From assembly GCA_016280355.1 (NCBI GenBank), contig JAEEGO010000192.1, forward strand, positions 1 to 32,983: a stretch of 32,983 nucleotides of DNA, in the 5' to 3' direction. Of the stretch, positions 1,192-5,644 are shown in pieces. Below the pieces are notes generated by a model that ran no database searches, had not been told where the DNA came from, and saw only the letters and a list, made by a program, of their open reading frames with translations. Positions within the stretch are counted from its first letter, which is position 1; every line of letters begins with the position of its first letter. Position numbers and translations under genes: made by a program. Source of the DNA: Lachnospiraceae bacterium (GTDB taxonomy: Bacteria; Bacillota; Clostridia; Lachnospirales; Lachnospiraceae).

Positions 1192-1379
1192 TCAAAGAGG
1201 GAGATATTTCAAGGCTCGATCCTGTGTATTGGTTTGAGTGTCCGAAATGCTGGTGCATTTATGAGGCTGTGAAAAGCGAATGCAGACCTGTAAGAATGGA
1301 TTACAACGGGGATGTGGGATATTATTACAAATGCCCAACTTGTGAATATGATGTTGCAGGAAAACCCAAGCTGATATGA
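1182..1379 (+). CDS. small zinc-ribbon-like protein
   Basis: CPKC...CPTC pairs; overlaps both neighbouring ORFs. Confidence 0.5.
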   Translation: MEIIKEGDISRLDPVYWFECPKCWCIYEAVKSECRPVRMDYNGDVGYYYKCPTCEYDVAGKPKLI

Positions 1380-3031
1380 CATATCTTGAAGAATATCACC
1401 GGGCGATACAGAGCGGTGAGCTGGTCGCAGGATACTGGATAAAAAAAGAGATCTCGCAGCTTGTGAAGGATATGCGGGATGAACGGTATATCTACGACAC
1501 TGCGGAGGCTCACAGGCGGTTCAGATTCATGGAAACGCTGTGCTTTCAGTCAAAGCAGCCGTATTATATGCAGCCTATCAGTCTGATGCCGTGGCAGCGT
1601 GCATGGTGGGAGGCAGTGTACAGCTTTCGCATGGCTGACACGGGGAAAAGACGGTTTACGGAGGGACTGCTTGAAGTGGCTCGTAAGAACGGCAAATCCA
1701 CCATGTTCGCGGCGGACGGGATGTGTGACCTGTTCATCGGGGAAAGCGGCATGGACATCTGCTGTGCATCCAACGATGACAGACAGGCGCGGCTCATCTG
1801 GTCGGAGATAGCGGGGATGAGGTCAAGGCTCGATCCGAAAAAGGCTATATCATCACAGAACCTTACGGAGATAAAGAACCGTGTGAAGGGTACGACAGTC
1901 TTCAGACTGTCGAGCAGGACACAGAACAAGGACGGTTTCAACATATCGAAGACTTTTCTCGATGAGAGCCATGATATATGCGAGGAAAACGGACAGAGTG
2001 AGGTCGCGGAGGCTTGCTGGCGCGGAATGAGCTCGAAGGATGAGCCACTATTTCTCAATTGCACTACGCAGGGCTTTAACCGGGAATGCTATCTTGATAA
2101 AAAAATACAGATGGCGAAGGAGATCATCAGCGGTGAATGGGACGATGAACATTTCATCGCATTCCTGTTCGAGCAGGACAGTGAATCGGAGATATGGCAG
2201 GACAAAAGTTCCTGGGCTAAGTCAAATCCGTCTTTGCCGTATGGAGTAAAGAAGATCTCACAGCTTGAGCGTGATGTTGAGAGGTCAAAGCATGACAAGG
2301 CGACACGCATCCATATGCTGACGAAGGATTTCAACGTCCCGCAGTCGGATGCAGTGGGATGGCTCATGCTTGAAGACTATGATCAGCCGTATGCTCCCGT
2401 GAACATGGACAAGCTCAGAGGGGCGCTTCTCCTCGGGGCGGTGGACTTGTCGGCTACAACGGACTTGACAAACGCAAAGGCGATGATCATGCTGCCGGAT
2501 GAGAAGAAGAAATATGTGCTGACAAAATACTTTATCCCGGAATGCAAGCTGACGGACAGTGCGGATAAAGAGGCAGGCGCTGACTATGTGCAATGGGCGC
2601 GTGACGGTTCTGTTGAGGTACATGAGGGCAAAAATGAGGTGGATCTTGAACGGGTGGCGGACTGGTTCTATTCACTGTATACGGAGTGGGGACTGCGCCC
2701 GTACAAGATAGGCTATGACCAGCGGTATGCAAAGACATTCAAGGAGCGCTGCGATGCTTACGGATTCGAGTATGAGATACTCGCACAGGGGCGTGCTCTG
2801 TCGAATGCGATGAAGCTGACTGAGGCAGACCTGAAGGCACGGCTCATCGAATACGGAGGCGATCCCGCTGACAAGTGGTGCCTGGGCAACTGCTGCTGTC
2901 AGGTGGACAACACGGGAATGATACAGCCTGTGAAGGCCCACTCAACTCACAACAAGCGCATTGACGGTGCGGTCACTCTGATCATGCTCGAAGAGATGTA
3001 CAGGAGATACAAAAATATATGGGCAAAATAA
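1376..3031 (+). CDS. terL: terminase large subunit
   Basis: 551 aa; Walker A-like EVARKNGKS, PWQRAWWEAVY, later DLSATTDLT nuclease-region motif; followed by portal/protease/capsid. Confidence 0.93.
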   Translation: MTYLEEYHRAIQSGELVAGYWIKKEISQLVKDMRDERYIYDTAEAHRRFRFMETLCFQSKQPYYMQPISLMPWQRAWWEAVYSFRMADTGKRRFTEGLLEVARKNGKSTMFAADGMCDLFIGESGMDICCASNDDRQARLIWSEIAGMRSRLDPKKAISSQNLTEIKNRVKGTTVFRLSSRTQNKDGFNISKTFLDESHDICEENGQSEVAEACWRGMSSKDEPLFLNCTTQGFNRECYLDKKIQMAKEIISGEWDDEHFIAFLFEQDSESEIWQDKSSWAKSNPSLPYGVKKISQLERDVERSKHDKATRIHMLTKDFNVPQSDAVGWLMLEDYDQPYAPVNMDKLRGALLLGAVDLSATTDLTNAKAMIMLPDEKKKYVLTKYFIPECKLTDSADKEAGADYVQWARDGSVEVHEGKNEVDLERVADWFYSLYTEWGLRPYKIGYDQRYAKTFKERCDAYGFEYEILAQGRALSNAMKLTEADLKARLIEYGGDPADKWCLGNCCCQVDNTGMIQPVKAHSTHNKRIDGAVTLIMLEEMYRRYKNIWAK

Positions 3032-3061: not shown

Positions 3062-3307
3062 TTACAGAGGGCGGCTGAGTTCATAGAGCTCGTGAGGGGC
3101 AATATCCTGCCCGTGAGCCCACTCTATGCCGTTACCGCCTGATATGACTCTAACACTGCGGAAATAGTTCACATCTTTCAGCTCACTGTACCAGTTACCT
3201 GTGATATAGGGGCTGACATCGAACAGCTTTTTCTCACTGTTCTCGTATTCAAGACGAAGGCGGTAATTATCCTCTGGTGTGACTGAGGTAAGTTTAGGCT
3301 GCAGCAT
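3062..3307 (-). CDS. DUF2442-like protein
   Basis: 81 aa with LRLEYENSEKKLFDVSPY and ISGGNGIEW patterns typical of DUF2442; RBS GGAGG. Confidence 0.65.
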   Translation of the reverse strand: MLQPKLTSVTPEDNYRLRLEYENSEKKLFDVSPYITGNWYSELKDVNYFRSVRVISGGNGIEWAHGQDIAPHELYELSRPL

Positions 3308-3316
3308 GATGACCTC

Positions 3317-3583
3317 CTATCTGAGGGGCTCGATCTTGAAGAACTGATCACCCTCCGAAAGTATTTTCCAGTTAGCTTCAAGATCGTCCTTATGTATCTC
3401 TATCCATGCCAACAGAAGTTTCATTTTGTTTTTGGGAATAGAGCCTTCAAGAACATCGCCTTCAAGAGATACTACGACTTCATCGCCCGAATATTCTGCA
3501 TGAATATGGGGTACATTGTGTTTTCCGCCTATCTCTCTGTACATTCTGACTATTATCCCGTAAAATATACTTAATACCGGCAT
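3317..3583 (-). CDS. DUF4160-like protein
   Basis: MPVLSIFYGIIVRMYREIGGKHNVPHIHAEYSGDEVVVSLEGDVLEGSIP is DUF4160-like; RBS AGGAGGAATAAT before internal ATG at 3583. Confidence 0.75.
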   Translation of the reverse strand: MPVLSIFYGIIVRMYREIGGKHNVPHIHAEYSGDEVVVSLEGDVLEGSIPKNKMKLLLAWIEIHKDDLEANWKILSEGDQFFKIEPLR

Positions 3584-3584
3584 A

Positions 3585-3788
3585 TTATTCCTCCTGAAAT
3601 TGTGTTCCGTGAGCGGACATATCCTCCTCAATGAGGCGGACTATATAGGCGTTCAGACTTTCACCGTTGGCGGTGCAGTATTCCTTTATACGGTCACGCT
3701 GACCTTTTTTCACAACGAATTTTATCTGGTCGTAGTTCTTCTGTGTATAGCGCTGTACTGCTTGTGCTCCTGCTTTTGTATATGCCAT
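3585..3788 (-). CDS. Arc/RHH-like small DNA-binding protein
   Basis: MAYTKAGAQAVQRYTQKNYDQIKFVVKKGQRDRIKEYCTANGESLNAYIVRLIEEDM; beta-strand plus two helices typical of Arc-like RHH. Confidence 0.7.
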   Translation of the reverse strand: MAYTKAGAQAVQRYTQKNYDQIKFVVKKGQRDRIKEYCTANGESLNAYIVRLIEEDMSAHGTQFQEE

Positions 3789-3811: not shown

Positions 3812-3840
3812 ATTATAGCAGAAATATATATTAGTAACAA
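3812..3840 (-). promoter_or_regulatory. sigma70-like promoter of RHH/DUF4160/DUF2442 operon
   Basis: On minus strand TTGTTA (3840-3835), 17-nt spacer, TATAAT (3817-3812). Confidence 0.65.
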
Positions 3841-3843
3841 TAT
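3828..3843. promoter_or_regulatory. imperfect operator copy
   Basis: ATATTAGTAACAATAT; 14/16 match to the palindrome at 3894-3909. Confidence 0.6.
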
Positions 3844-3888
3844 ACATAATACACAAATATGCTCCTTAATGTTTGGCTGATATGTGCA

Positions 3889-3917
3889 TTGATATATTAG
3901 TACTAATATGTTATAAT
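3889..3917 (+). promoter_or_regulatory. sigma70-like promoter for small membrane peptide
   Basis: TTGATA, 17-nt spacer, TATAAT. Confidence 0.8.
3894..3909. promoter_or_regulatory. palindromic operator in promoter spacer
   Basis: ATATTAGTACTAATAT, a perfect 16-bp palindrome. Confidence 0.7.
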
Positions 3918-3942
3918 AATATACAGAAAGGAGGTGAGAAAA

Positions 3943-4068
3943 ATGCAGAAGGTCACAAAAAAGATTAAAGAGCTTGCAAAGCTGGTCGCACAGCTCAACA
4001 AACTCTTAATCAAAGTCATTAGCTTAGTGGGCTGGGTTCTGATACTCATTCACTTAGTTAATAACTAA
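3943..4068 (+). CDS. 41-aa amphipathic/transmembrane peptide
   Basis: MQKVTKKIKELAKLVAQLNKLLIKVISLVGWVLILIHLVNN; strong SD AAAGGAGGTGAG; below the size cutoff of the ORF track. Confidence 0.7.
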   Translation: MQKVTKKIKELAKLVAQLNKLLIKVISLVGWVLILIHLVNN

Positions 4069-4078
4069 AATCTCAAAG

Positions 4079-4103
4079 GTTCGGCGGCGATGAACCGCCG
4101 AAC
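4079..4103 (+). terminator. hairpin after small peptide gene
   Basis: GTTCGGCGG-CGATGAA-CCGCCGAAC, 9-bp stem; no strong T tract. Confidence 0.5.
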
Positions 4104-4146
4104 ACCTTAAGAATATTATACAATAAAACTTCTGCATTTGTCAAGT

Positions 4147-4269
4147 ATGAAAAGTGAAAAAAAGGAACTTTTCAGAGAGAGCGGCAAGCTGCTCCGGCAG
4201 GTAATACGGCTCATAGGTCTGCTTTGCGTGCTTGCTTTGCTCATCAGAGCCATAATTGATATGGTCTGA
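4147..4269 (+). CDS. possible second 40-aa membrane peptide
   Basis: MKSEKKELFRESGKLLRQVIRLIGLLCVLALLIRAIIDMV; charged N-terminus plus one hydrophobic segment; weak SD. Confidence 0.4.
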   Translation: MKSEKKELFRESGKLLRQVIRLIGLLCVLALLIRAIIDMV

Positions 4270-4277
4270 CATCAGAT

Positions 4278-4320
4278 CCCCGCCGTGGATGGTGTAACAT
4301 CTGCGGCGGGGTTCTTGTTT
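4278..4320 (+). terminator. rho-independent terminator
   Basis: CCCCGCCG...CGGCGGGG followed by TTCTTGTTT. Confidence 0.75.
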
Positions 4321-4396: not shown

Positions 4397-5644
4397 ATGA
4401 GCTCGTTTGCGGAGGTGAGAGATACGGGGATATTCGATTTTTTCAGGGGGCGGAAGTCCGGTGATGCAGCAGGACGGCATTATGCGGCTATGCTCAACGG
4501 TACTATGCCCATATACTCACAGTACGGGACGGATATATATTCCTCCGATGTGGTACAGCAGGCTATAAGCTGCATAGTCATGGAGATGAAAAAGCTCACT
4601 CCGAGACACATCAGAGTGGAAAGCGGTGATATGCTCCCTGTGGGAAGCAGTATTGACAAGCTGCTGAGAAAGCCCAACGGGATGATGAGCATATCGGACT
4701 TCATCGAAAAGGTCTACTGGCAGCTGTTCCTTAACTACAACTCTTTCATCGTTCCCACCTATGTGAGGAAATACAATGCGGACGGCTCATCCTACAAGGA
4801 ATACACGGGACTTTATCCCGTTGCTCCGGTACAGGTGGATTTCATCCGTGATGCTGCTGATGAGCTGGGCGTGCATTTCGTATTTTCGGGCGGGTATGAG
4901 TGTGATCTGCTGTATTCGGATGTGATCCATCTGAGATACAGATACTCCGTCAACGAGTTTATGGGCGGAAATGAGTTCGGGCAGCCCGACAACAGGGCTC
5001 TGCTCAAGACACTGGAGCTAAATGAGACGATGCTGACGGGGGTGGGTAAGGCTCTCAAGAGTTCCTTCTCCGTCAACGGCATCATCAAATACAACACGCT
5101 GCTCGATAATGGCTCGATGGACAGGGCGATAAAGGAACTGGAGGCGCATCTTGCCAACAATGAGAGCGGATTCCTGCCGATGGATTTGAAGGGTGAGTTC
5201 GTTCCGCTCAACAACAAGATACAGCTTGTAGATCCCAACACACTGAAATTCATTGATGAGAAGATCCTGCGGACATACCGCGTTCCCGTGGCGATACTAA
5301 CGGGAGATTACACGAAACAGACCTATGAGGCATGGTATCAGGGCTGCCTTGAGCCGTTGATAATCAACATATCCCAGGCATTCACGAACGGGCTGTTCAC
5401 GGAGCGGGAGCGTTCCTTCGGAAATGAGATAAAATTCTATCCGCATGAGCTGATATTCATGACAACGGAACAGAAGCTTGCCTTGTTCGACATTCTGACG
5501 GACAGTGCAAGCTGCTACAAGAATGAGCTGAGAACGGCGTTCGGTATGTATCCGCTTGAGGAGCTCAAAGGTCAGCTGGCGGTATCGAGCAATAAATCAA
5601 ACGCTATGAACAATGAAGCGGACGGAGGCGGAGATAATGGGTGA
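4397..5644 (+). CDS. portal protein (HK97 family)
   Basis: 415 aa; position after terL; AVQQAISCIVMEMKKL-type N-terminus, LRKPNGMMSISDFIE and RVPVAILTGDYTKQTYEAWYQ. Confidence 0.9.
   Translation: MSSFAEVRDTGIFDFFRGRKSGDAAGRHYAAMLNGTMPIYSQYGTDIYSSDVVQQAISCIVMEMKKLTPRHIRVESGDMLPVGSSIDKLLRKPNGMMSISDFIEKVYWQLFLNYNSFIVPTYVRKYNADGSSYKEYTGLYPVAPVQVDFIRDAADELGVHFVFSGGYECDLLYSDVIHLRYRYSVNEFMGGNEFGQPDNRALLKTLELNETMLTGVGKALKSSFSVNGIIKYNTLLDNGSMDRAIKELEAHLANNESGFLPMDLKGEFVPLNNKIQLVDPNTLKFIDEKILRTYRVPVAILTGDYTKQTYEAWYQGCLEPLIINISQAFTNGLFTERERSFGNEIKFYPHELIFMTTEQKLALFDILTDSASCYKNELRTAFGMYPLEELKGQLAVSSNKSNAMNNEADGGGDNG

Follow-up and report, generated by a model that had tools for sequence, protein, structure and literature searches.

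A predicted type I toxin-antitoxin-like cassette of clostridial phages and plasmids with an exchangeable repressor of its own

The window analyzed here, a stretch of 32,983 nucleotides from a Lachnospiraceae bacterium, encodes an unannotated 41-amino-acid peptide, which we call pep1, divergently from an RHH gene. What is this pair of genes, and how is it controlled? A sequence-only reading had proposed that the RHH protein acts as the repressor of its own gene and of the peptide. The locus lies between the genes for the large terminase (1376-3031) and the portal protein (4397-5644), and judging from the ORF translations, the contig also carries capsid, tail-like, integrase-like, and repressor-like genes. 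No exact overlap was found between the contig ends, and a complete circular phage genome is not demonstrated for the window. The features of the region are:

3062..3307, minus strand: DUF2442 gene, DhiA-like (Pfam 2.6e-13); a neighbor, not part of the core
3317..3583, minus strand: DUF4160 gene, DhiT-like, relative of a type II toxin-antitoxin (TA) toxin (Pfam 7.8e-22); a neighbor, not part of the core
3585..3788, minus strand: gene for a predicted RHH (Arc/AmrZ-like) repressor of 67 amino acids (profile matches, low-confidence model, PHROG Arc-like repressor families)
3812..3840, minus strand: RHH operon promoter TTGTTA-17-TATAAT (10/12, TGn before the –10)
3828..3843, both strands: candidate operator copy 2, ATATTAGTAACAATAT, 14/16, over the –35 and spacer of the RHH promoter (parallel: the paired sites of locus L044)
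3889..3917, plus strand: pep1 promoter TTGATA-17-TATAAT (11/12, TGn before the –10)
3894..3909, both strands: candidate operator copy 1, perfect 16-bp palindrome ATATTAGTACTAATAT in the pep1 promoter spacer (counterparts in related loci)
3943..4068, plus strand: pep1, 41 amino acids, amphipathic and transmembrane, putative type I toxin (recurrent family; dN<dS; phrog_7712)
3958..4108, minus strand: predicted antisense (antitoxin) RNA of ∼150 nt (MFE –56.6 kcal/mol, z –6.95)
3958..4011, minus strand: intrinsic terminator of the predicted antisense RNA, inside the pep1 codons (–23.9 kcal/mol, z –5.8; codon-preserving test; pair counts)
4075..4108, minus strand: hairpin at the 5′ end of the antisense RNA and the 3′ end of the pep1 mRNA, without a U-tail on the sense strand (from sequence)
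4115..4144, minus strand: antisense promoter TTGACA-18-TATAAT with perfect hexamers (counterparts in other pep1 loci)
4147..4269, plus strand: pep2, hydrophobic peptide of 40 amino acids, no clear Shine-Dalgarno sequence, start behind the antisense –35 (17/20 loci; alignment)
4278..4311, plus strand: predicted terminator of the pep1-pep2 mRNA (from sequence)

Both σ70-like promoters of the sequence-only reading are present, but its description of them as face-to-face is wrong: the pep1 and RHH promoters are divergent and lie back-to-back. The perfect palindrome was confirmed and shares its first base with the last base of the plus-strand –35; the imperfect copy and the 41-amino-acid ORF, which follows a strong ribosome-binding site (GGAGGTG), were likewise recovered. 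Sites with at most three mismatches to the palindrome occur three times in 33 kb against 0.16 expected, and none of 100 shuffles contained three. Three elements had gone unmentioned: a minus-strand promoter directed into pep1 (4144-4115), the hairpin at 4075-4108, and the hydrophobic ORF at 4147-4269.

The RHH protein itself belongs with the PHROG families of Arc-like repressors. A profile built from its homologues matched AmrZ in the PDB (3qoq, E 7e-5), and Arc and Mnt were also matched. A low-confidence model contains two C-terminal helices (28-41 and 45-60), with the strand not resolved; profile and model together point to an RHH fold. A search of viral contigs for close relatives of the RHH protein alone gave no match. 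Homologues of it are encoded without pep1 in other phages (L049, 1370-1500; L052, 1300-1500), where repeated half-sites (ATCGCTA; TGTATCC) lie upstream of their own genes.

Profile searches revealed relatives of pep1 in about 20 distinct loci of Clostridia, mostly phage- or plasmid-borne. They derive from Clostridia genomes, C. difficile phages, two plasmids, and IMG/VR contigs, and once near-duplicates had been removed, 21 loci whose pep1 is intact were left for dissection. The cassettes are found in phage terminase/portal contexts, in C. difficile phages, and on the plasmids pTM2 and Sarcina p1. Congeneric genomes contained no pep1 or RHH relative beyond the window's own, and two more host families, when searched, yielded no additional locus. 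One PHROG match (L008) was discarded as false, being in the wrong frame within a large ORF.

Wherever the neighborhood of a dissected locus is intact, a small DNA-binding gene nearly always adjoins the peptides. It is an RHH gene in divergent orientation in the window and L044, and an RHH or RHH-like gene downstream of the peptides in L009, L038, L006, L025, L028, L043, and L054, where the assignment of subgroups other than the window's is based on weak profile matches and the overall pattern. An XRE gene is located downstream in C. difficile, L032, L033, and L040 and divergently in L035, and an AbrB gene downstream in plasmid pTM2 (L045). The cassette of L045 (7461-7947), on the 8.2-kb, satellite-like Terrisporobacter plasmid pTM2 with VapE and capsid genes, combines an AbrB/MazE-type regulator with a 17-bp promoter palindrome. 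In Clostridioides phage ES-S-0173-01 (L003, 35-3048), three pep1(-pep2)-XRE cassettes follow each other within 3 kb, with an antisense promoter after each pep1.

The proposal that the operator-bearing cassette should be sought in other phages and plasmids was borne out: it recurs in both, and nearly every regulator-carrying locus has a palindrome at the promoter. In most loci this palindrome lies between or beside the –35 and –10 of pep1 and differs by regulator class (Fisher 1e-15, with a 29-base shuffle as a coarse null). The site count in the window and this test across loci led us to reject chance occurrence of the operators. Less regular cases are L032 and L035, which have no perfect spacer palindrome, and L002 and L003c, whose candidate sites reach into the –35 or lie beyond the –10. 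A homologous locus lacking the operator had been named as evidence against the repression reading, and L030 does show no such palindrome at its pep1 promoter, but neither was a DNA-binding gene found near it.

Within regulator subgroups the operators are shared. L006 and L025 have GGTGCACC in common, and L028, L043, and L054 the sequence ACATAC..GTATG, in both cases despite diverged flanking DNA. L009 and L038, with related regulators, share TACGTACGTA (TACGTA), which is weaker evidence because the whole promoters of this pair are alike. The closest parallel is L044, whose divergent RHH protein belongs to the window's own family (37-39% identical). Its pep1 spacer contains ATAAGAGCACTTAT, and on the RHH side lies ATAAGCGCGCTTAT, identical to it at 12/14 positions, so that L044 independently repeats the window's divergent layout with two candidate operators. 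A regulator located downstream in the pep1 operon needs one operator, and both divergent RHH loci have two, as self-repression predicts. This co-occurrence of operator and regulator supports the prediction that the RHH protein binds the palindromes, and the comparison gives good support to the proposed repression of its own gene and of pep1. The repression reading is nevertheless incomplete: it had missed both the conserved antisense RNA that appears to control pep1 as well and the second peptide gene behind pep1.

The antisense RNA is predicted from three conserved elements. First, when the 100 bases 3′ of pep1 are scored for minus-strand promoters, the best one lies close behind the stop codon in each of the 18 loci tested; its score ranges from 8.5 to 14.5 points and reaches p≤0.05 against shuffles in 14 of the 18 (Fisher combined ∼1e-17, the loci not being fully independent). 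L026 (∼2491-2608) has an intact pep1 ORF and an antisense-type promoter after it, yet no recognizable sense promoter. Second, a hairpin follows the pep1 stop codon in nearly all loci (weak in L043). As a U-run on the sense strand is absent in every locus, it does not look like a terminator of the sense transcript, and we rejected this interpretation. In the window, an RNA started near 4108 would open with this hairpin, cross pep1 in antisense, and reach a terminator and U-run near 3958.

This terminator, the third element, is formed within pep1 codons. Across loci its stem comprises 230 paired positions against 179.6±5.3 after synonymous codon resampling (z 9.6), which kept each protein and applied the window's codon usage to the C. 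difficile loci; the window by itself gives p 0.049. Of the stem cells, 85% are paired, compared with 26-48% once partners are slid. Read on the minus strand, the stem contains 19 G·U pairs, and read on the plus strand 4, favoring a minus-strand RNA; in L035 the two arms of the stem are exchanged, a compensatory change. In most loci a minus-strand terminator inside pep1 is therefore kept beyond the effect of codon choice. Promoter, 5′ hairpin, and codon-constrained terminator, the sequence marks of a type I antisense RNA gene, are thus all in place, and they predict an RNA of ∼150 nt over pep1. Rfam returned chance matches only for the region.

These findings weigh on the strongest alternative, the simpler sequence-only reading, in which the autorepressing RHH protein also controls a membrane peptide with another role, such as superinfection exclusion, and no function attaches to the antisense promoter and the hairpins. 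The repressor and operator evidence would stand without any RNA, and pep1 is a putative toxin. Because the antisense promoter is present in all loci examined, the hairpin in nearly all, and the constrained terminator in most, we regard this explanation as unlikely.

The genes downstream of the RHH gene suggest a second alternative. DUF4160 and DUF2442 are the superfamilies of DhiT and DhiA, which form the type II system DhiTA (PMC8198452). The window proteins reach the Pfam cutoffs for both families, while the DUF4160 protein scores 54.2 bits against NCBIfam DhiT, below the equivalog cutoff of 100. Together with the RHH gene they constitute a tight operon (3062-3788), a DhiTA-like type II TA apparently under the RHH operator. 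The RHH protein could hence be the autoregulator of this operon and pep1 an unrelated neighbor sharing the intergenic region, all the more as the products of DhiTA repress their own promoter (PMC8198452). But one operator sits inside the pep1 promoter itself, and elsewhere regulator genes adjoin pep1 without DhiTA, including one of the same RHH family in L044, so that we give this idea very little credence. For the same reason, DhiTA was rejected as a component of the RHH cassette: none of the other pep1 loci examined contained DUF4160 or DUF2442, and the pair looks like an added type II TA outside the recurring cassette.

The pep1 family has the consensus KIKELIKLVxQLEKLxIKIISLVGWILILIKL; with 41 amino acids and a hydropathy maximum of 2.4 over 17 residues, pep1 is a short, predicted transmembrane peptide as in type I toxins. 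Against the toxin reading counts the lack of the positively charged C-terminal tail found in many of them. It matches phrog_7712 (E 3.6e-5), a family without assigned function, and searches of Pfam and NCBIfam gave no family for either peptide. Between related loci, nonsynonymous changes per site are fewer than synonymous ones in both peptides. pep2, present in 17 of the 20 loci tallied and also in L054, and absent from L006, L031, and one C. difficile copy, is thus conserved and under purifying selection. It lacks a clear Shine-Dalgarno sequence in the window and in several relatives; its start region seems to be constrained by the antisense –35, and translational coupling or another control may apply. 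That both peptides are hydrophobic and distantly alike (hhalign probability 71%, E 3.7e-5), with amidase-like lysis genes near some cassettes (L009, L035), might suggest a holin-like lysis pair or secreted bacteriocin-like peptides with the hairpin as a processing or attenuation element, but we consider this the least probable of the alternatives, given that many cassettes are located at terminase/portal genes or on plasmids, that a dedicated repressor and an antisense RNA are unexpected for late lysis genes, and that no leader or export signal was seen in either peptide.

Based on the architecture, conservation, and covariation found in the sequences, we propose that the locus is probably a type I TA-like cassette, a phage accessory module with two off-switches and its own swappable transcriptional repressor. 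RNA production, RNA pairing, repression, and toxicity we infer as follows. The promoter at 3889-3917 would yield one mRNA for pep1, the putative membrane toxin, and pep2, and the convergent promoter between the two genes the antisense RNA with its 5′ hairpin and its terminator inside pep1. Pairing of this RNA with the pep1 mRNA would trigger degradation or block translation. The divergently encoded RHH protein would bind the operator in the pep1 spacer and its counterpart at the RHH promoter, and thereby shut off both the mRNA and its own synthesis. Other elements appear to have exchanged this repressor for another RHH, an XRE, or an AbrB protein, usually along with the operator; the peptide/antisense core stays in place. 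A burst of peptide synthesis is plausible when the element enters a repressor-free cell or outgrows its repressor by replication.

Among known systems, the closest layout is that of yonT/SR6/yoyJ of the Bacillus subtilis prophage SPbeta. There the antisense RNA SR6 extends over the 3′ end of yonT and also over the 5′ end of a weaker second toxin gene, and it was shown by experiment to promote yonT mRNA decay (PMC5848175). Shared with our cassette are a small toxin gene without a typical terminator, a 3′-overlapping antisense RNA (predicted here) with an extended –10 promoter, and, on the same mRNA, a second peptide or toxin gene whose start lies behind the antisense promoter; the accessible part of the source describes no RHH, XRE, or AbrB repressor for the SPbeta system (PMC5848175), and the dedicated repressor would be an addition of our cassette. 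Its peptides may be unrelated to pep1 and pep2; tblastn of the two against a phage collection (E≤1) that may or may not include SPbeta matched C. difficile phages only. The double lock resembles dinQ/agrB of E. coli, where LexA has operators over the promoter of a 27-amino-acid membrane peptide and an antisense RNA acts in addition, as predicted here (PMC3567139). There, however, the repressor is the global LexA and not a dedicated, cassette-encoded one (PMC3567139).

In the open-access literature, we found no type I TA whose own cassette encodes a dedicated repressor, RHH or other, and no account of the pep1 family. Type I TAs are usually described as toxin plus RNA, and their transcriptional control is left to global regulators such as LexA. 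We lean, with some reservation, toward an undescribed mobile type I TA family of three conserved layers (toxin peptide, antisense RNA, second peptide), in which dedicated transcriptional control by an interchangeable RHH, XRE, or AbrB repressor, its operator usually changing along, is part of the TA unit. Here the cassette-specific repressor would travel with the toxin, and unrelated DNA-binding families would replace it together with the operator around a conserved peptide/RNA core. This makes testable why a mobile element should double-lock a toxin, be it for entry into repressor-free cells or for replication, and offers a natural promoter set for studying repressor/operator co-evolution. 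Standard annotation would miss the family, because the peptides are unannotated in many records.

The cassette also resembles the type I TAs of C. difficile prophages (CD0977.1-RCd11 and others), which the accessible parts of their descriptions present as membrane peptides of 34-59 amino acids with convergent antisense RNAs in Clostridia phages and plasmids, without mention of a dedicated repressor (PMC7699646, PMC6563280). As given there, the toxins combine a hydrophobic N-terminus with a lysine-rich tail, whereas pep1 is amphipathic and then hydrophobic; they occur in all C. difficile phages surveyed in these sources, whereas pep1 matches only four large C. difficile phage records (PMC7699646, PMC6563280). 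In a Ruminococcus MAG (L029, 2412-2716 and 4011-5089), a pep1 relic with a disrupted reading frame occupies exactly the interval between two copies of a CRISPR repeat, next to a CRISPR array, which recalls the co-location of type I TAs and CRISPR arrays reported for C. difficile (PMC6563280).
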